Source of the DNA: Diprion similis
Taxonomy: Eukaryota > Arthropoda > Insecta > Hymenoptera > Diprionidae
Length of the DNA stretch: 64,000 nucleotides
Reading direction: 5' to 3'
NCBI RefSeq assembly: GCF_021155765.1
Contig: NC_060113.1
Span: forward strand, 1,602,501 to 1,666,500
In this document: piece by piece, positions 16,391 to 64,000 of the stretch
Numbering within the stretch: the stretch's first letter is position 1
Layout: every line of letters starts with the position of its first letter
Notes under the pieces: generated by a model
Seen by the model: the letters and a program-made list of their open reading frames with translations, nothing else
The model's database searches: none
What the model was told of the DNA's origin: nothing
Position numbers and translations under genes: made by a program

Positions 16391-19127
16391 ATGAATGGCG
16401 AAACGGTATGAAATAACAGCTAATCAAGTTTTGAGTCGAAAATTGTTTTTAAACTATATTTGTGAAGCGCTTGACGTGTTAATAAACGTATGATACACAT
16501 ATAATTCTTTCTTTTAGCAGCATAACATGAATGACATTACCTCCGACTTCACATGTCTCAAAGTATCCGCTTTGTGTAAGGCGTCTCGCATATCAGACGC
16601 TGTCCGGCATGTCACGATTGGTCCAGATTCTGTCTTGATTCCTGACTATCATGTGGACAACGAGAACATTGAAAACCAGCCGGATAACAGTATAACTAAA
16701 GAGGTTAAACCACAGCCAAGGTCACAAAGTCCAAAGGCATCAACCAGAAGCGGTATAACTTTTTCGAAAAAGAAAATGCTGCTCGAAAATGAGGTGCAAC
16801 GAAGAGAAGAAGTCAAAGTAAGAAATTTACAGCAAAATTTGTCTGTACTATTGGCCAAGAAACAAAAAACAAATGTGTATTCTTTTTTTTAGCAAAGCAT
16901 GCAACGCCGCCTTCAGAGTATGATGAAGGCGGAATCTAAACTGCGAGAACAAATGGCTGTAATTCGGAATATGATGATAGCAAACAGAGAGCATCAGGAG
17001 AGTATAGCGAAGGATGAAATCGCCAGGCTTGAGGCTGAGGAGGAGCATGCTGCTGAACAAAATGAAATTAAACGGAAACATGAACAGCAATTACATGCGC
17101 AGAGAATACTGGAACGGAAAGAGAAATTGGAACGGGAAGTTGAGGAACAGAGAATAAGGAATCAAGAGAAGAGAGTATTGTTTGAAAAAATGCTCCCGCT
17201 TCATGCTAGCTTCGGATCGACTTATCAGGACATCAGCACAGTGTCAAAGTCCTGCAAGGACAGGAACATCGTTGGACCTGCCTTTGCTCCGCATTCAGTC
17301 AAGCTCAAGGAGCTCAGCAAATGCATGGAAGGATTGCTCGAGCGTGCTAAAGTGAGGTTTTCACCATAATTTACCTGCAGCATGCCTACTTGTTCATTCG
17401 TTTCTGTTTCGGGACATTTCGTAACTCTCATATTCACTTCACCAATTTCTTTTCACACATACAGCCAAGCGAGAGCCTTGTAATTGCTCTGTAATTTAGA
17501 ACATTGACGCCTGGTAACTATTAGTAACTGTTTTAGTCAGGCGAATTGACCGAAGAAGATATTAACACCGCAGAGATTCTTGCAAAACATAGCGAGGCTA
17601 TCTTGAATGCTTTCAAGCAAGAAATAGGTTAGTAAAAAATTGTATCTAAATACAAACTCTTCCACATATTTTACCTCTGTGGTTTCAGATCGAATAAATG
17701 CTGCCTACGACGCAGAAGTAGCTCGCAGAGAAGAGGAAGTGAGACAAGCCCAAGCGCAGAATCAACTTATGGCTTCTAAAGCTCAGGAAGCTGCAGTTCA
17801 ACCTGATCAAAGACCAAGCGAGATCCTTCAAAGTACTGGCGTCACTGACCAAATCACAACAAATGCGTTGGAGGAGAATAGTACACCAGAGACTACAAAT
17901 CAGACACAGTTATCAGTGGAATCCGTCGTCCCAGAGTCTAAAACAGGTGAGCGTTTTCATTGCTACTTCATGTAGATAGCAGCTTTCTGTAAGAAGTTTG
18001 CTTGCTAATCATTTTTTTGAATTTTCAGAACATCTTCTAGAGTTCGCTGACAAGGATTCAGTGGAAATTTACTTGAATAGTCAACAATTACTAGAAAATC
18101 ATAACATCCTATGTTCGCCTCTAACCAATTCGGAGACTACAAAGAAGTTCCGGTTCGAGTGTCAGAAAGCAATAAATATACCCGTGAATGCGATTTCCGG
18201 TGTTAGCAGAGAACATCTTACCGACAAATACGAAAAGCTGCATGGTTTGCTAGGCGGAAAGCCGCCGACTAATGCAAACCAACATCCGCAAGGCATACCC
18301 TTCTGCAAGCATACCTTGGCCAAGAAATTTGTGGTACGTTGAGCATATCGATAAGAATATCACCATCTTTACATTTCACCACAATTTTCCATGTCTGTAA
18401 ACAGAATCAAGGCGAAGCTCTAGTTTCCAGCAAACCAGAAATGGCATTTTCCGTTGCCGCGGTTATCGTGGCTCTCTGGAACGACTATCCGGACTTCGGT
18501 GAACTACTTTTGGCCTATTTCTACAAAACCTGCCCTTACTTAGTTCCAATGTTCCTTCCTCAACAACAGGGCCAGTCTAACGAGGACTACTACAAATCCT
18601 TGGGCTACAAATATTCGGAAGATGGAACCGTCGAACGGCAGGATAAGTTCTTGAAGAGAATGTCGGGCTTGATGAGGCTTTATGCGGCTCTGACTGTAAC
18701 AAGGCAGCGAAAGCTCGTCACGCGTCCACATCCTCATGGCTTACAAAACGCTTGGAGATGGTTGGCAGCAATTTTGAACATCGGTAAATGCTACTCAATG
18801 TCCCACCGTACTGTGTTCCTAAAAGTGATGTTTTATTCGAATATGTGTCTTCAAATACGATTTATACTTACAGAACCACGTCCTGACATCTGTGCAACCT
18901 TGATCTTCGATATGCTTGAAGTGACTGGACACGCATTGTGGAAAACCTATCCTAATCAGTTTCCAAAGCTGCTTGCCTTGCTCATCACCCAATATTATCC
19001 TCGTATGCAGAGCCTCGGAGGTACAGCTGGTGGTCCTCTGGCTCGGTTGGAACAGTTTTTGAAAAATTCTTTGACCAGAGGCTCTATGCCGCCACCCGAC
19101 GGTCAACTGCCCCAAAATTTTTGGTAG
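16391..19127 (+). CDS. GLE1: GLE1 mRNA export factor (685 aa, eight exons)
   Basis: GLE1 works at the cytoplasmic face of the nuclear pore, where with IP6 it activates the DEAD-box ATPase DBP5 to release exported mRNA. Exons: 16391-16405, 16521-16817, 16893-17351, 17537-17627, 17689-17946, 18029-18333, 18405-18783, 18874-19127. All phases join, giving 2058 nt. Residues about 105-260 are a long Glu/Lys/Arg/Gln-rich coiled coil, as in the family. From about residue 375 comes the alpha-helical GLE1 domain, with LAKKFVNQGE, PYLVPMFLP, LGYKYSEDGTVERQDKFLKR, MSGLMRLYAAL, HPHGLQNAWRWLAAILNI and LEQFLKNSL. Human GLE1 is 698 aa. The 15-nt first exon (MNGET) is inferred; the next in-frame ATG is at 16527. 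The exon 2 acceptor is a TAGCAG tandem site, so one extra Gln is possible. Confidence 0.93.
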
Positions 19128-19783: not shown

Positions 19784-22232
19784 CTAATAGTAACGAACGG
19801 TTGTTGGCACATCCTCGGCACCTTCGTCCGTCACGTAGGCGTCCAAGGAATTCGAGGTGAAGCCGATGACTCCGTAGGGAGAAAATCGTTCCGCCCAATG
19901 TTCGTTTTTCGTTGAGCCGAGCAAGTACGAGGATATTTTCTCCCTCAATTCGGCTGTGAAGCAAACAAATGATATAGAGAGATGTGAAAGAAAGCGGAAA
20001 CAAAAGTGAAATAAGGTGCATATAAATCTGCATTCGAAACCGCAAAGCGAGTCCATAATTTTATTAAATTCCTGTTATAGGACGAACGGCGCTTTACGTT
20101 TTCGAGGACGCGACGATGACTCGTAATTGCGTCAGCAGTGACGTAACCACGTGTCAAGGCGGCGTGGTGGGCCCTGATTTTGTCTTTTTATTATTATGCT
20201 TTTTTTAGGCGTTAGTCAAGATCCCAAGTCATCCGCTCGGCGCCATTCGATTTACTATTCAATTATACCGCAACGGCGAATTACGCAAGCAATGATCTCG
20301 GGGATGCTGAGAAGCGGTTCGCCTGGCTCTGCATAATTTAAACGAACCTCACCTGAAACTGACTTATTGACGTAGATCGCGTACGGAGGCAGCGGGCCGA
20401 GGCTGCCCAAAACGAATAGGGAACCGACGCCGGGCGTCCGTTTTCGGTGAAATTCCAACACTGGCGCCTCGACGACTCCGACTTCCGTCTGTTTTCCCGC
20501 CACCATTTGCAGCGTCGAGAGTTGCGAGCCGGAATCTGCGGACGTGGAAAAATAATGAAAAAACGCTTGTCTCCTCTCATCGTTTATTTTTCTCCGCATA
20601 TTTAGGTACGTATGATGCTTTGTGGCCAGCGGCAGCCGATTCAAGGAGAACCGGTGTTTAGTCTCTGTAAGCAAGAATTTCAGTGGGACGAACGAGCGCG
20701 TCTAACCGGAGTCGATGTAACTGGTGCTAAACGGGTAAATATTATCCGGCTTCGATCACGAGTCTCGATTTTGCGAACAAGAACGAATTAGAGATCGAAC
20801 GAAGACGGAATTATAGGAGGTAAAATTAGTTTGGGCAACGGGTGAAGAAGACTTGGAAGTTTGTGAGATTAACAAAGGTCTCAAAGGTCTTCAAACAATT
20901 CCAAATTCACGAAGCGACGCTTTTTCTTCGCCGTGCATCGTTAGGGACGACAACGCGTTGCTAACTTCACACCGTCGAAACTAACGTTCCAAAATGTCCT
21001 TTCAGGATTATGCATACTGTCTTAACACCTACCCAGGGTATTTCCAAAGAAAGCTGGACTCTCTCCTTTCGAACGCAGGTCGCTCAGAAGAAGCGTCGCG
21101 GCGCCTCTTCGTCGGCGACGGTCCGGTAGGGAGCATCGATGACCCCGGAGGTCCATGATGTTCTACACGAAGTGAATATGGAAATCCGGATCATTGGTCA
21201 AGGATAATTCAGATCTGCGGACACCGACGGGCGATTTGATCGCTTTTAAATTCATGCGTACCTTGACGTAGGGTCCATGGTCAGCGGCGACGACTATGTC
21301 GACGTAAACGTTGCCCGACGTACCGTCGTTCAATCGGTGAGCGAAGACGAAGGTGACTGGCAAAAGCTCGCCTCCTTTCCACTCGCTGTACGCCGGTAGA
21401 ATGGCTGAGAAAATATTCAAAGTATGACAACTAGATACTTGTCCGTGCAGGTTCAAACGAGTTGGAAAGTAAGATGGCGTATATATTGAATCGATAAAAA
21501 TCGCCGACTGTCAGATATAAAAACTATGCTAATTCTTCATCGCGGTTTCACGGTAACTTATTGAAACCCCGAGGACAAATCACGGTCCTGGATCATTTCC
21601 TGTTTCAATATAAATTTTTGATGAAAATCTACAAGTTTTTATGACAAACTATTCCTTTTTTCCAGCAAATTCTTCGAAATGTTCCAATTTCCCTAAAAAT
21701 TCGTCGAAACCATTTTCACCAGGGTAGTCGACATCGATGCTTAATGTAATTTAATCGAAACTCGGATTACCCAGGTCGACGACATCCTTGGCGACGGGTC
21801 TGTCGGATCGAGACTCGTAGACGAGGCTCACAGGGCGTTGAGTTGCCGCCTCGACGGCTTCGGCGAGAACCTCGAAGAGGCCGACGGGGACAGAGGGAAC
21901 CAGATGGGTGGCGAGGATCAGCGGACGAGCCTCCGGATCGATCGACGGCAGCGAAATCTTTTTGGGAAGAGCGGCGCTCTGGACCGGCTGTAACATCAGA
22001 CCCGAAAAAGTCCTAGAATATGCTTATTTCTTATATTCCCTCTTCAACGAAAACTTACCGCAACTTTTTGCAGGTGGCTTTCCTTGGGTTTTGTCACGCC
22101 GACGATTACCGATTCCTTAGCTGGAATCGGATCAGTCTTCGATATCGATCCTTGATCCTTCTTCGGAACAACCGCTGGCTTTTCGCTCGATAACTTGGCG
22201 GTGGAGAGTTGCTGCTTACCAGAGGATGACAT
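19784..22232 (-). CDS. PhnD-like phosphonate/phosphite-binding-fold protein, animal type (338 aa, six exons)
   Basis: Exons 5' to 3' on the minus strand: 22232-22059, 21987-21771, 21404-21262, 21162-21033, 20535-20353, 19953-19784. All five junctions keep phase, giving 1017 nt. After a polar 60-residue lead (MSSSGKQQLS...) the protein follows the order of the PhnD / type 2 periplasmic-binding fold. First comes a strand-helix unit (LILATHLVPSVP...LFEVLAEAVEAATQRPVSLVYE). Next are KDVVDLAILPAYSEW, VDIVVAADHGPYVKNIMDLRG, then GSQLSTLQMVAGKQTEVGVV (family: GSH..sl..V..G.aD.a.id), LGPLPPYAIYVNKSVS and a C-terminal AELREKISSYLLG...RFSPYGV. In bacteria the family captures phosphonates for ABC import. 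Here there is no obvious signal peptide, so a cytosolic role is likely, and the ligand is unknown. The loop after DLRG is unusually Arg-rich and lacks the usual 'DP.S.SG' string. Family assignment is by remembered pattern. Confidence 0.8.
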
Positions 22233-26350: not shown

Positions 26351-27739
26351 CACCGTTTTTACCGTAAGGATCATCTTCCGCACTTCCGGGCTTTTAGACG
26401 ACCGGGAGAAGGATTATACGGAAGATCGATATAGATGTATAGATCCTTGATTCTTCCTTTTATCGCGGTATATAGATCCTTTCTCTACTGCGGTTATATC
26501 GACTGACCTGGAGAAGAGAAATGGTCCACGTCTTCTCTGCAGTTCGGATTCTTGATCCTGATCCGGATCTTGAAATTTACCGCAGATGAAAGTGAGAAAA
26601 CTTTGTAGGTGTGTTGTTTTTTGAGGCTCTATTACAGCGATGTTGTTTTCCTCGTTTATAGTACGCGGAGACAAGATATTTCAGAGATTTTGTCTGGATG
26701 ATATAACGAACGGCGGATGTGCACGCACACACGCATCTCAAGGCTAAGGGTGTGACGTTGTGTGTGTGTGTTTACGAGATAGGACCAGAAATGAGAAAGA
26801 ATGTTGCGGACATTGAACGATATGTCTTCAACCATAAAGATCAAGATTTTATACACGGAAGGAAAGAATTATTTGAGTCAAGTGATACTCGTTTGATTCA
26901 ACCAAATGTAGCGAACATGATATACTTACTGAATTTCAGAAGAATACTTTTGTTGGTGTAGCAAAATTTAGTCGAATCAACTAAACATTTTGTTAGACCG
27001 ATGGATCTTGAATTGAGATGTATAAATATTTACTTCGCCGCGTGTGACCACATACGTAGGTGATTCAATGACTTGTTTCTCTCGGTATATACATAAATAT
27101 ATCTCGACGATCTTACATTACAACTAATTAAAGACGGTAGCAGGATCGGCGATCGATGCGGAAAAATTGGACATCGACTTTGGGTATATATGTTACAGAT
27201 GACTCTTTGGCGATCGGCTAAATATAGCGGTGCTGCAACACGGTTCTATGCGATGGGTAAATAATTACCGAGTTTCAAGAAGTGTCCACACCGGCGTACG
27301 TTCGTTTATATCTTATGGAATAGTAGTTGAGTTTTCAAGTCCAAGATATCTTCAAAATACGACTACGGCAACGCCCATCAGGAGATCTGCATGCAGACGT
27401 ATGGCTGAACGATCGAGGATCGAGGACCGGATCGGTTGACACTTCTCGATCGAGCACGTATAAGGAACGGAGAGAGGAATAAGAGAGGGAGAGATAAAAG
27501 AGGAAAGAGGGAGGGAGGGAGGGAGGCAGAGGCGACGTCCTTGCCAAGGTGAAAAGGTTGACGGTAAAGGCGCGTGGTGATTGGACTGGTCCGCATAGTG
27601 GATCACGAGGCTAGAAGCAAACCGATTCGATCTGAATGAAAGAGACGCGGTCCCGGATCGCTGATGTTAACATGGCCTAGAAACGGAGCCGGAACTGGTA
27701 GTGCTCGGATTCAATGACCTTGGCGTTAGCATTCGCCAA

Positions 27740-48016: not shown

Positions 48017-48645
48017 TGCGTCATTGTAGGACCTTTTACAAGGCGTAAAGGATAAAAAGGCGGATTTTCACCTTCGTATTTACGCGAAAAACTTGAGGGT
48101 ACATTTGAAAATGTTGAAATTGAAAAATGAGTCAACCAAAGGTAGAAGGTCGCAAATAGTCTCGGCTATGCCCTTTTCTCGCGAACTTTATGAACAATAA
48201 TCACCTTCACTAATGGCGGAAGGTCTCACGTGCCCACATACGACCTCGTACCCTTACGATTGATATTATTTTGGGAGAAAGTAAAAAGTTTTAAACGTTC
48301 TTCCAGAAATCGTCGAACCCTTACGTTTCAAAGGTATTTAAAACGTTTGCGTAAAAAAAATTTTTGGCGGATACGACCTTGTACCGTTACGTTCGATATA
48401 ATTTTTTGCGTAAATATAAAATTCTTAAAATTCTTCTCGAAATCGATAAATCTTTATGTTTCGAAGGTTTCTGCATCGTTTACGAAAAAAACACAAAAAT
48501 TACAGGTGCGATCGCACACCATTTATAAATGTGATGAATAGAAATAAATTTCGGTAGCTGAAAGGGCGAATCCATCAATCATCAGGCCTTTTACCTTTAT
48601 TCGTTATTTTTTTTGTTAAATAATTTTAGTCTAGATATGCATTTT
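48017..48645 (+). repeat. Dispersed repeat, copy 1 (629 bp)
   Basis: Nearly identical to 53561-54190 over the whole length, in the same orientation. Shared landmarks are GTAGGACCTTTTACAAGGCG at the left, CTCACGTGCCCACATACGAC in the middle and TTTTAGTCTAGATATGC at the right, after which the copies diverge. Inside is a degenerate head-to-tail dimer of about 131 bp beginning at ATACGACC (about 48,239 and 48,370). Near the ends, TAAAGGATAAAAAGGC and the reverse complement of GCCTTTTACCTTTA resemble short inverted repeats. No transposase frame; the 103-codon open frame inside lacks any family motif. Confidence 0.9.
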
Positions 48646-53560: not shown

Positions 53561-54190
53561 TGCGTCATCGTAGGACCTTTTACAAGGCGTAAATGATAAA
53601 AAGGCGGATTTTTCACCTTTGTATTTACGCGAAAAACTTGAGGGTACATTTGAAAATGTTGAAATTGAAAAATGAGTCAACCAAAGGTAGAAGGTCGCAA
53701 ATAGTCTCGGCTATGCCCTTTTCTCGCGAACTTTATGAACAATAATCACCTTCACTAATGGCGGAAGGTCTCACGTGCCCACATACGACCTCGTACCCTT
53801 ACGATTGATATTATTTTGGGAGAAAGTAAAAAGTTTTAAACGTTCTTCCAGAAATCGTCGAACCCTTACGTTTCAAAGGTATTTGAAGCGTTTGCGTAAA
53901 AAAAATTCTTGGCGGATACGACTTTGTACCGTTACGTTCGATATAATTTTTTGCGTAAATATAAAATTCTTAAAATTCTTCCCGAAATCGATAAATCTTT
54001 ATGTTTCGAAGGTTTTTGCATCGTTTGCGAAAAATACACAAAAATTACAGGTGCAATCTTACGCCATTAATAAATGTGATGAATAAAAATCAATTTCGGT
54101 AGTTGAAAGAGCGCATCCGTCAATCACAAGACCTTTTACCTTTATTCGTTTTTTTTTTTGTTAAATAATTTTAGTCTAGATATGCGTTTT
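53561..54190 (+). repeat. Dispersed repeat, copy 2 (630 bp)
   Basis: Second copy of the element at 48017-48645, same strand, differing by scattered substitutions and one-base indels. Both copies end at TAGATATGC(A/G)TTTT. The flanks are unrelated, which fixes the shared unit at about 630 bp. It carries the same internal 131-bp dimer (starts about 53,784 and 53,915) and the same CACGTG. Confidence 0.9.
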
Positions 54191-57790: not shown

Positions 57791-60700
57791 AAATCTTTAC
57801 AAAATTGCAAAAAATTGTCGTTTTTCCTCTTTAAAATTAGCTAAGGAGCGTCGTTAGCTTTAAACGATTTAGATAATTTTACGAATATTTGAAATACTGC
57901 GATAAATCGAAATGAAAGAATATCGTGTATCAATATTCTAAAAACTTTACTACAAAAAATCTCTACAAAATTGCAAAAAATTATCATTTTTTTCTCCTCA
58001 AAATTAGCTAAGGAGCGTCGTTAGCGTTAAACGATTTAGATAATTTTACGAATATTTGAAATACTGCGATAAATCGAAATAAAAAAATATCGTGTATCAA
58101 TATTCTAAAAACTTTACTACCAAAAAATCTCTACAAAATTGTAAAAAATTATCATTTTTTTCTCCTCAAAATTAGCTAAGGAGCGTCGTTAGCTTTAAAC
58201 GATTTAGATAATTTTACGAATATTTGAAATACTGCGATAAATCGAAATGAAAGAATATCGTGTATCAATATTCTAAAAACTTTACTACCAAAAAATCTCT
58301 ACAAAATTGCAAAAAATTATCATTTTTTTCTCCTCAAAATTAGCTAAGAAGCGTCGTTAGCGTTAAACGATTTAGATAATTTTACGAATATTTGAAATAC
58401 TGCGATAAATCGAAATGAAAGAATATCGTGTATCAATATTCTAAAAACTTTACTACCAAAAAATCTCTACAAAATTGCAAAAAATTATCATTTTTTTCTC
58501 CTCAAAATTAGCTAAGGAGCGTCGTTAGCTTTAAACGATTTAGATAATTTTACGAATATTTGAAATACTGCGATAAATCGAAATGAAAGAATATCGTGTA
58601 TCAATATTCTAAAAACTTTACTACCAAAAAATCTCTACAAAATTGCAAAAAATTATCATTTTTTTCTCCTCAAAATTAGCTAAGAAGCGTCGTTAGCGTT
58701 AAACGATTTAGATAATTTTACGAATATTTGAAATACTGCGATAAATCGAAATGAAAGAATATCGTGTATCAATATTCTAAAAACTTTACTACCAAAAAAT
58801 CTCTACAAAATTGCAAAAAATTATCATTTTTTTCTCCTCAAAATTAGCTAAGGAGCGTCGTTAGCGTTAAACGATTTAGATAATTTTACGAATATTTGAA
58901 ATACTGCGATAAATCGAAATGAAAGAATATCGTGTATCAATATTCTAAAAACTTTACTACCAAAAAATCTCTACAAAATTGCAAAAAATTATCATTTTTT
59001 TCTCCTCAAAATTAGCTAAGGAGCGTCGTTAGCGTTAAACGATTTAGATAATTTTACGAATATTTGAAATACTGCGATAAATCGAAATGAAAGAATATCG
59101 TGTATCAATATTCTAAAAACTTTACTACCAAAAAATCTCTACAAAATTGCAAAAAATTATCATTTTTTTCTCCTCAAAATTAGCTAAGGAGCGTCGTTAG
59201 CTTTAAACGATTTAGATAATTTTACGAATATTTGAAATACTGCGATAAATCGAAATGAAAGAATATCGTGTATCAATATTCTAAAAACTTTACTACCAAA
59301 AAATCTCTACAAAATTGCAAAAAATTATCATTTTTTTCTCCTCAAAATTAGCTAAGAAGCGTCGTTAGCGTTAAACGATTTAGATAATTTTACGAATATT
59401 TGAAATACTGCGATAAATCGAAATGAAAGAATATCGTGTATCAATATTCTAAAAACTTTACTACCAAAAAATCTCTACAAAATTGCAAAAAATTATCATT
59501 TTTTTCTCCTCAAAATTAGCTAAGGAGCGTCGTTAGCGTTAAACGATTTAGATAATTTTACGAATATTTGAAATACTGCGATAAATCGAAATGAAAGAAT
59601 ATCGTGTATCAATATTCTAAAAACTTTACTACCAAAAAATCTCTACAAAATTGCAAAAAATTATCATTTTTTTCTCCTCAAAATTAGCTAAGGAGCGTCG
59701 TTAGCGTTAAACGATTTAGATAATTTTACGAATATTTGAAATACTGCGATAAATCGAAATGAAAGAATATCGTGTATCAATATTCTAAAAACTTTACTAC
59801 CAAAAAATCTCTACAAAATTGCAAAAAATTATCATTTTTTTCTCCTCAAAATTAGCTAAGGAGCGTCGTTAGCGTTAAACGATTTAGATAATTTTACGAA
59901 TATTTGAAATACTGCGATAAATCGAAATGAAAGAATATCGTGTATCAATATTCTAAAAACTTTACTACCAAAAAATCTCTACAAAATTGCAAAAAATTAT
60001 CATTTTTTTCTCCTCAAAATTAGCTAAGGAGCGTCGTTAGCGTTAAACGATTTAGATAATTTTACGAATATTTGAAATACTGCGATAAATCGAAATGAAA
60101 GAATATCGTGTATCAATATTCTAAAAACTTTACTACCAAAAAATCTCTACAAAATTGCAAAAAATTATCATTTTTTTCTCCTCAAAATTAGCTAAGGAGC
60201 GTCGTTAGCGTTAAACGATTTAGATAATTTTACGAATATTTGAAATACTGCGATAAATCGAAATGAAAGAATATCGTGTATCAATATTCTAAAAACTTTA
60301 CTACCAAAAAATCTCTACAAAATTGCAAAAAATTATCATTTTTTTCTCCTCAAAATTAGCTAAGGAGCGTCGTTAGCGTTAAACGATTTAGATAATTTTA
60401 CGAATATTTGAAATACTGCGATAAATCGAAATGAAAGAATATCGTGTATCAATATTCTAAAAACTTTACTACCAAAAAATCTCTACAAAATTGCAAAAAA
60501 TTATCATTTTTTTCTCCTCAAAATTAGCTAAGGAGCGTCGTTAGCGTTAAACGATTTAGATAATTTTACGAATATTTGAAATACTGCGATAAATCGAAAT
60601 GAAAGAATATCGTGTATCAATATTCTAAAAACTTTACTACCAAAAAATCTCTACAAAATTGCAAAAAATTATCATTTTTTTCTCCTCAAAATTAGCTAAG

Positions 60701-61229
60701 GAGCGTCGTTAGCGTTAAACGATTTAGATAATTTTACGAATATTTGAAATACTGCGATAAATCGAAATGAAAGAATATCGTGTATCAATATTCTAAAAAC
60801 TTTACTACCAAAAAATCTCTACAAAATTGCAAAAAATTATCATTTTTTTCTCCTCAAAATTAGCTAAGGAGCGTCGTTAGCGTTAAACGATTTAGATAAT
60901 TTTACGAATATTTGAAATACTGCGATAAATCGAAATGAAAGAATATCGTGTATCAATATTCTAAAAACTTTACTACCAAAAAATCTCTACAAAATTGCAA
61001 AAAATTATCATTTTTTTCTCCTCAAAATTAGCTAAGGAGCGTCGTTAGCGTTAAACGATTTAGATAATTTTACGAATATTTGAAATACTGCGATAAATCG
61101 AAATGAAAGAATATCGTGTATCAATATTCTAAAAACTTTACTACCAAAAAATCTCTACAAAATTGCAAAAAATTATCATTTTTTTCTCCTCAAAATTAGC
61201 TAAGGAGCGTCGTTAGCGTTAAACGATTT
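57791..61229. repeat. Satellite array, 168-bp unit, about 20.5 copies
   Basis: Head-to-tail repeat with starts every 168 bp. For example, the CTAAGGAGCG or CTAAGAAGCG landmark is at 57841, 58008, 58176, 58344 and so on to 61200; only the first interval is 167. The unit is AT-rich and includes GAATAT...ATATTC, a small dyad. Left-edge units are the most diverged. Units from 59520 onward look the same at the sites I compared. Two variable sites, AAGG/AAGA and GTTAGCT/GTTAGCG, give a four-unit pattern (58512-59183) that is repeated (59184-59855). The right edge breaks off mid-unit at GTTAAACGATTTA. 168 is divisible by three, yet every frame has stops, so it is not coding. Confidence 0.97.
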
Positions 61230-64000
61230 AACCGTATCGGCTGCCCGCGAGGTTCTTACAGCGAACACCGTTAACCTAACCGCGGATCGTAACCAGCGGC
61301 GTGATTAATTAATCTTGATGAATAACCCCGGATAGGAGTCGGATTAGGTTTCCAGATCCCTCCTGCCTTCCCCCTCCTTCCTCTTCTCGTTCCATCCTCT
61401 TTTCCCGATTTCCTCGTCGAAGCTGCTGACCTCAGCTGCATGGCCGGATAATTCGCGGAAGGTTAAATTCTGTAATTAGTACTCTGGCGTCGGTCAGACA
61501 GTCTCCCGTTTATCCCGCATCCCGTCTAAGATAAGGGATACGAATTGCTCTTGCCGAGAGCGCTTCTTTCCTCCCTTTTTTTTTTTTTTTTTTTTTCTGT
61601 TTAATTCGTTTTTTTTTTGTTTTCTTTACCCCCGTGGTAAAGTTTCGGCGATTCTACACCTTCGTTTTTCAATTCACCTTGCTTGCCAAGCTGCGGTTAC
61701 TACTGAAACTTTATTCCTACTCCGATAGTATAATCGGGAAATTGTTTTTCTCCTGTTGCTGCGAAACTTTTCTCTGTTTAGAGAGGAAGAGAGAGAGAGA
61801 GAGAGAGAGAGGAAGGCAATTCAACCGCGGTGCATTCTGGGTATCGAAACTGCTTCGGGACAATTTTTGTCTGGTTTTTTTTAGCTAAATTTTTAAACTT
61901 TTCATCCGTTTGTTAAATATTTATTCGATAAGAGATTATAAATATACTCACTCAAATTCGATTGTTCGATATTATTATTGGACAGAGAAAAATATTCTTC
62001 ACAAATTAATTGTTTTATGCAAATTGTTAAATTTACAATAATAATAGTAATAATAATAATAATAACAAATTCTTTCATTATCATTCTCTGCGGTTTATTC
62101 GATACAGTTAAACGTTGTTAATAATTATCTTAAATATACGTATGAAAGATTTAAAGGAAAAAAAAAATAGCAGCAACAATCATTTTATCGAATTATTTAA
62201 CACAGTGGCACCAGAGAAATGACATTATCCATATACATGTATATGTACACAGATAATTTCATCGAATTAGTAAACACTCAGATGTAATTTGACGAAATTA
62301 TTTGTGATACCGTTTCGTAGAAGTATTAATTAACGATTCTTTGAGGCTAATCAAGTTCTTTCACAGTCAATGAATTGATGTGACTGAGCTACACTGTCGT
62401 AATAAAATCCTTACGTATTATAATATTCAAGACACAATTTGCCGGAATTGAATGTTCTCGATTTTATTGATCCATCGGAGATTTATCCCTTGGGGAGAGA
62501 GGATTTTATTCGATATGTAAACGTCTCTATAACTACGCGGTTATCCGGGTTCGTGGATGTTACTTAACGATTCTCAGGTGCATAAAACGGAAATGGCAAG
62601 GCAGCAGAATTAGATTGCTGACAGGTCTTATATACATACATATATATTAGTATAAAAAGTTGATGGCACCGTAAAAGTTTTATACGACGTCAGTTTCGAT
62701 CTATATACCTAGTTTGATTCCGGAGTAAAGTATAAAATTGGACGACACTTTTTGTTCTATTTAACTATATCGATGTATGTATATGATGCATATATAGGGT
62801 GGTGAGAATTTATTTACTGGAAAAGAGAGCCTTCATTTCACTTCCATTATGTTGTCGCAGCGGAATCGGGGTGCGGAACAAATTTTTTCCAGAATGGTTG
62901 GATGAAAATACTGCGGTAACATTTTTTATCATTTAGTTATGTATATATATATATATATAACGATGCAAATATTGTTGAAACCCCGTACTTTTTTCGTTTG
63001 AAAAAAAAAAAAAAATAATAATTCATTGTCAGTACACAGGACTGCGTTTTTTACGCGTAATACACACGTTTAGGACGAAATTCCTAAACGACTTTTTTAA
63101 TTATAGTATATATATGTATATTAGCAGAGATAAAATTCATGCTGATGCGGGGGAGGGTGGGTGAGGGATGCGGTTGTAAATACTGGTGAAATTCTGGAAA
63201 ACCTTGAAACGTTAGAAAATTATTCACGGCGGAATATGTTTGGGGAATTTTTGCGGTATAAAGGTGACAACGGCAACGATGATGGTGTAAAAAATTTGTG
63301 TAGATATACGACCCGATTTTGTGAAATTACCAAATTTTTCGTCTCAGGAATATACAGGTTTTTCTATTTATTTTATTTTCGTTTTTGTTTTAACTCGGAG
63401 TGAAATTTTCTCAGGAATATTGAATCGTTTTTTACATTTATTTTATTTTCATTTTTGTTTAACTCGGAGTGAATATTTTCTCAGGAATATTGAATTTTTT
63501 TTCATTCATTTTATTTTCGTTTTTGTTCTAACTTGCAGTGAAATTTCGCCAGATTCCTGAAGTTTCCAATTTTCCTTACCTTTTTTCGTTCGTCGAATAT
63601 GGATCGGGGAAAAAAGCTGGCTGGTTGACGATCGACGATGATCATGATTATGTGTTAGAAAGCTGGAAATTCCCGGTTGCATATTATGCGGATATGCGGT
63701 TTTTATTCTTCGTATAAGGCTTTTTGGTTTTACTTGGAATATTAATTTTTTTGCAATATTCAAGTTTAAAAGCTTTCATTTACAACGTAGACGAAATATG
63801 AGAAAGGAAAATAAATTATAAAGTCTGTAGCGCGGGTTTAACACTGTATTATAATTTAAATCCGTATAATATGCGAATGTGAAATTTACTTGTTGTGAGT
63901 TAGAATAATCACCTAATCTAAGTACCTAACTCTCGTGAATTAAAACGATTTCCGAAGAAAATTACAGGAAACATTTCAGTTGACTTTTCAAAGCAATGAA
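61230..64000. other. Region right of the satellite, no gene seen
   Basis: A GC-richer, non-repetitive 300 bp directly abuts the satellite, then AT-rich DNA follows with T runs (61,576-61,597), a GA repeat (61,787-61,811), AAT repeats (about 62,040) and TA runs. A short tandem repeat at 63,342 is listed separately. Presumed intron of the gene that starts at 57,463; no acceptor followed by a protein-like frame was found. Confidence 0.55.
63342..63551. repeat. Three-copy tandem repeat, about 67-70-bp unit
   Basis: The string TCTCAGGAATAT recurs at 63342, 63409 and 63479. Each is followed by a T-rich block (TTTATTTTATTTTCGTTTTTGT) and AACTCGGAGTGAA or AACTTGCAGTGAA. Units differ by small indels and substitutions, so it is an older, short array. 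Confidence 0.85.

Follow-up and report, generated by a model that had tools for sequence, protein, structure and literature searches.

The gene described here lies on the minus strand of a 64,000-nucleotide stretch of Diprion similis DNA (the window), which covers positions 1602501-1666500 of a 14.4-Mb contig (C9) in a 269-Mb assembly of 60 contigs. It runs from position 22232 to 19784 of the window, and its six exons, rebuilt independently, join into 1017 nt that encode 338 amino acids and a stop codon (Table 1). All five introns (71, 366, 99, 497 and 399 nt) begin with GT and end with AG, and all joins are in phase, as the first-pass annotation had proposed. The exons have a G+C content of 0.57 (0.65 at third codon positions) versus 0.42 for the introns.

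Table 1. Exons of the PhnD-type gene and neighbouring or internal features (window coordinates).
Feature	Coordinates	Strand	Content
GLE1-domain ORF of neighbour gene	18273..19127	+	PF07817, E 7.4e-59; tail to tail with the PhnD-type gene
Exon 1	22059..22232	-	Start codon and polar 58-residue lead; donor GTAAGT
Exon 2	21771..21987	-	Lobe 1, first strand and helix (by alignment)
Exon 3	21262..21404	-	End of first lobe-1 segment and crossing to lobe 2; Y164 at the place of PtxB Y94
Exon 4	21033..21162	-	Lobe 2; carries DLRG and the Arg loop PDRRRRRG
Five Arg codons	21106..21120	-	Place of the S-T-S oxygen-binding loop; all within exon 4
Exon 5	20353..20535	-	Remainder of lobe 2 (Q226 at the conserved His place), return to lobe 1
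Exon 6	19784..19953	-	C-terminal segment of lobe 1 and stop codon (included in the coordinates)

Pfam searches of eight open reading frames in the window gave matches to Methyltransf_10, CLU_N, TPR, GLE1, ZNHIT3_C and a family-2 glycosyl hydrolase, and two of the eight were without a match. Among these neighbours are what we take to be the genes for METTL16, CLUH and beta-glucuronidase. The domains are those of a eukaryote; to judge from gene content and genome size, the host is likely to be an animal, and probably an insect. An ABC transporter gene (permease or ATPase) was recognised neither by eye among the window ORFs of at least 110 amino acids nor by Pfam among the eight, so that the earlier remark on the lack of transporter genes beside the gene stands. 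Contamination of the assembly was rejected in view of the five introns, the eukaryotic gene domains on both flanks and the size of the contig; carriage by a virus or plasmid was also considered, and gave no match. A tRNA scan returned none, and a scan for bacterial promoters and terminators gave nothing informative on the gene. When the protein was compared with its own genome by tblastn, six matches were obtained, every one at the exons of this gene; no second copy was found at E ≤ 10, the four best candidate stretches having been scored. At the search sensitivity used, the gene is present in the genome as a single copy.

The joined protein matches the Pfam family PF12974 (Phosphonate-bd) with an E-value of 6.4e-16 and 58.9 bits against a gathering cut-off of 27, which bears out the PhnD-type assignment made at first sight. 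The alignment spans protein residues 96-322 and profile positions 16-242 of 242, and no other Pfam family matched the joined protein at E ≤ 1. A profile-profile comparison with 42 bacterial relatives scored 75, whereas none of 20 shuffled versions exceeded 20.0 and the protein read in reverse scored 13.8. A chance match and a pseudogene were both rejected, given the strength of the PF12974 match, the intact frame, the contrast in G+C between exons and introns, and the shuffle control. A real spliced nuclear gene with a PF12974 domain is therefore confirmed at the level of sequence, on which the exon joins and the N-terminus of the gene model are also based. The narrower NCBIfam model TIGR01098 (phosphate/phosphite/phosphonate substrate-binding proteins) gave 15.7 bits, far under its cut-off of 112.05, and a phmmer search of the PDB returned two matches, both at chance level. 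A search for the family across the animal's own genome found nothing because each exon was scored alone there. Membership of PF12974 suggests the two-lobed type 2 periplasmic-binding fold.

Because the match lies above the Pfam threshold, eukaryotic genes of this kind would be picked up by standard annotation, and uncharacterised entries for them can be expected in public databases. Among the literature matches listed, in a collection mostly outside which subscription papers fall, no paper deals with a PF12974 protein from an animal. The word ‘phosphonate’ is absent from the main text of two papers on horizontal transfer (PMC13342648 and PMC13320244). A further paper, PMC6902594, was set aside as a report on the family; its accessible part concerns another binding-protein family.

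The domain is preceded by a 58-residue lead with 10 Lys, 10 Ser, 2 Asp, 3 Glu and no Arg. Its hydropathy is low (for 15-residue windows that begin within residues 1-60, the highest mean is 0.65), and the scan detected no hydrophobic leader or stretch resembling a signal peptide. An AG is found just ahead of the initiating ATG (TTCCAG/A ATG), and an upstream exon is thus possible. Nine in-phase candidates for such an exon, sought with one donor pattern as far as position 26500, included no convincing signal exon. Both results agree with the earlier observation that a signal peptide is absent, and the protein is likely to be intracellular, to judge from its predicted N-terminus. Entry into mitochondria or the secretory pathway, by way of the lead or of a first exon that has escaped notice, is compatible with several of the functional readings discussed below and is considered unlikely: the abundance of Lys and Ser in the lead and the AG ahead of the ATG would be in keeping with it, but the lead lacks Arg and has five acidic residues, and the best 9-residue hydropathy mean among the nine upstream candidates, 1.28, is not strongly hydrophobic.

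PF12974 proteins are known as subunits of bacterial importers and sensors. As a control, the PF12974 model was run on 14 genomes, of which 12 gave matches, 10 of them above the cut-off. The plasmid and phage collections contain no tblastn match to the window protein at E ≤ 1, and a pattern scan of bacterial and viral contigs confirmed no relative. Relatives were found by tblastn in three overlapping draws of genomes, all from the one phylum Pseudomonadota: 398 from the phylum of G001 (the Stutzerimonas genome that carries L034), 385 from the class of G351 and 369 from the class of G001. The best match over the three draws has 29% identity over 137 amino acids (E 1.1e-9; L161).

These bacterial proteins were classed as ‘signal-less’ or ‘secreted’ by eye, from their start codons and the position of the first strand; ‘sensor-type’ refers to neighbouring ORFs for L121, L122, L124 and L126, and to resemblance only for L157, L158, L162, L167 and L168. 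In the 398-genome draw, nine genomes match at E ≤ 0.01. Three of the proteins are signal-less (L120, L123, L127), four are secreted and sensor-type (L121, L122, L124, L126), and L125 is PhnD-like and adjoins an ABC ATPase gene; the ninth, L128, is a frame interrupted by two stops and, by eye, apparently unrelated. The 385-genome draw has seven matches at E ≤ 0.001, five signal-less (L161, L163, L164, L165 and again L120) and two secreted (L162, L166). The 369-genome draw has four: L167 and L168, both secreted, L169, secreted and with an odd loop, and the signal-less L170. A model built from the window protein alone found two of the 398 genomes, those that carry the signal-less L120 and L123. 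The L120 protein, in turn, was searched for in 299 genomes, 37 of which match it at E ≤ 1e-10; of the 30 loci given, 28 were classed as signal-less.

An apparently signal-less PF12974-type subfamily is therefore present in Pseudomonadota (L120, L123, L127, L161, L163, L164, L165, L170 and L129-L156). It accounts for 8 of the 19 distinct hits over the three draws, which weakens the earlier suggestion of a bacterial acquisition repurposed in the cytosol. In plasmid records, proteins of this type are often named PhnD/SsuA/transferrin family substrate-binding protein. One member, L127, adjoins a gene for an ABC ATPase of the oligopeptide type, and a gene of this kind is also named under the match in two plasmid records; a link to transport is possible for the bacterial signal-less proteins.

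Similarity scores do not set the signal-less group apart. In profile comparison, the window protein scores 53.4 with the sensor-type group, 48.9 with the PtxB type, 45.6 with the signal-less group and 36.0 with the PhnD type; the PtxB and PhnD scores both exceed those of the shuffles, whereas a further secreted set (L097, L098, L102, L103) reaches 14.3, no better than shuffled sequence. Subfamily HMMs gave 23.3 bits for the sensor type, 14.9 for the signal-less and 14.8 for the canonical type. As the secreted sensor type equals or exceeds the signal-less group on both measures, an intracellular ancestor is not demonstrated.

Thirty rows were sorted as signal-less, and 21, 25 and 26 such rows entered three successive trees, the largest of which is relied on here. 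This tree has 53 rows; in it, the window protein sits on a branch of 4.02 changes per site and joins the signal-less group with support of 78/88. Two alternative placements were not rejected, one with the sensor type (p-AU 0.403) and one with the PhnD/PtxB group (p-AU 0.405). In the trees from smaller row sets, support for the window protein with the signal-less group was 83/60 and 100/100, and the grouping is unstable. Identity between the window protein and the nearest bacterial sequences is 21-22%. Given this identity, the long branch and the two unrejected rival placements, the bacterial rows do not place the protein, and the ancient bacterial acquisition proposed at first is neither demonstrated nor dated.

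A recent transfer from a bacterium can be judged on the same data. In its favour, the family is common in prokaryotes, as the control genomes illustrate. The five introns and the branch of about 4, however, speak against it, as do the lack of any match in the plasmid and phage collections and the modest identity of the best Pseudomonadota match. No bacterial sequence more than 50% identical to the window protein emerged from the plasmid, phage and three Pseudomonadota searches, and such a transfer is highly improbable.

In the ligand site of PtxB and PhnD, according to the accessible parts of two structural reports (PMC5700983, PMC10284923), an S-T-S motif acts together with a tyrosine and a histidine to hold the oxygens of the ligand, in a tight pocket where contacts are made by the main chain and by Ser, Thr, Tyr and His. 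For comparison, 52 bacterial rows were aligned; they are not a random choice, having been picked for their resemblance to PtxB, PhnD, L120 or the window protein. Two of them (Ps_PtxB and Prochlorococcus PhnD) are fragments, and some are near-copies. In 51 of these 52 rows, the place of PtxB S124 is occupied by Ser and that of S126 by Ser or Thr (L169 is the exception in both cases), and the place of H155 is His in 51 of 52 (the exception is L106). In the window protein, the corresponding residues are Arg195, Arg197 and Gln226, so that S-T-S...H becomes R-R-R...Q (R195, R196, R197, Q226).

The loop after DLRG reads PDRRRRRG. Its segment contains five Arg or Lys residues, whereas no row among the 52 has more than one; the Arg-rich replacement noticed in the first-pass annotation is thus real in the alignment. 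The five codons (CGT CGC CGA CGA AGA) are of four kinds, and because they lie inside one exon, the run is not an artefact of a splice junction. It could be peculiar to one species. Two tyrosines are retained: Y164 aligns with PtxB Y94, a column with Tyr in 45 of 52 rows, and Y273 with PtxB Y203, a variable column with Tyr in five of 52. At PtxB D16 and Y49 the alignment is unreliable.

Since the S-T-S...H residues that bind oxygen are gone, phosphonate or phosphate, the first candidates for a ligand, are not supported, and the sequence makes a classical binder of either unlikely. The secreted-looking bacterial relative L169 has also lost S-x-S and has a different loop (PPDVAAVSR), with the His kept. 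To judge from this protein, the predicted oxygen-binding site of the family is not absolutely fixed, and loss of the loop alone is therefore no proof of a new function.

Comparison with known systems places these features in context. PhnD, PtxB and HtxB, which bind phosphonate, phosphite and hypophosphite, have in common with the window protein the PF12974 domain, the DLRG region and tyrosines at the places of Y94 and Y203. They are secreted parts of ABC importers with S-T-S...H, whereas the window protein has no leader, no recognised transporter and R-R-R...Q. The signal-less Pseudomonadota proteins, which by eye start a few residues ahead of the first strand and include the best single hit (L161), are like it in domain and motif order, but keep S-x-S (S-x-T in two) and the His, have no polar tail and reach about 21-22% identity with it at best. 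Proteins of the type with sensor neighbours (L121, L122, L124, L126) give the top subfamily score, yet have a signal peptide (by eye) and retain an S-N-S-G loop and the His. The family is also able to bind ligands free of phosphorus: the available part of PMC10942540 describes BstB, a PF12974 protein from Methylococcus capsulatus that binds sterols, as periplasmic. BstB is a bacterial substrate-binding protein, likened here by its description only.

The reading preferred here, with a probability of about 0.6, is that a single-copy nuclear gene encodes an intracellular PF12974 protein with a 58-residue polar tail, which would not be a phosphonate importer and would have a rebuilt, basic cleft. 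Most of this weight lies on ‘intracellular, not a phosphonate importer’; the further step to a clamp for polyanions is, taken alone, tentative and less likely than not. The domain would still fold as two lobes that close in the manner of a clamp. Small tetrahedral oxyanions would no longer be held in the classical manner; instead, the Arg residues clustered at the cleft's mouth might hold a partner of greater size or stronger negative charge, for example a phosphorylated metabolite, an inositol phosphate or an acidic stretch of a protein. On closing, the protein would alter what it binds. A role in an importer appears unlikely from the sequence features.

The changes at all three near-invariant oxygen-binding places would also fit a simple loss of the ligand site, with the domain retained as a pseudo-binding protein that scaffolds contacts between proteins. 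A branch of about 4 changes per site also fits relaxed constraint on the pocket. This possibility deserves some weight, short of preference: Tyr is kept at the places of PtxB Y94 and Y203, although the latter column is variable, and five consecutive Arg residues written with four kinds of codon are no obvious product of plain decay.

Arginine is a common ligand of oxyanions, and its side chains may have taken over from S-T-S and His, so that a small phosphorus-containing or other oxyanion would still be bound; the domain does match the PF12974 profile from position 16 to its very end. The known sites are tight, however, with contacts from the main chain and from Ser, Thr, Tyr and His, and five Arg residues would probably crowd such a pocket. 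We therefore regard this arrangement as distinctly unlikely.

Most useful among the new points is the replacement of near-invariant oxygen-binding residues by a basic loop. A spliced, single-copy eukaryotic member of the family with no leader and a rewritten ligand site would belong to a kind of intracellular binding protein that has yet to be studied, and would illustrate how a binding fold changes its ligand. Carried further, and here the proposal becomes doubtful, some insects, and perhaps other animals too, may have an overlooked intracellular Venus-flytrap protein in which the PhnD oxyanion site has turned into an Arg clamp. The clamp would sense an acidic protein or else a metabolite that is polyanionic, and the polar tail would serve as the output.

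The window also contains repeats. A satellite-like tandem array occupies positions 57791-61230 (168-bp unit, 20.5 copies, 99% matches). Part of a longer dispersed repeat is present in two copies that are 97% alike and 5545 bp apart (48054-48353 and 53599-53898), and each copy has an internal 133-bp near-duplication.
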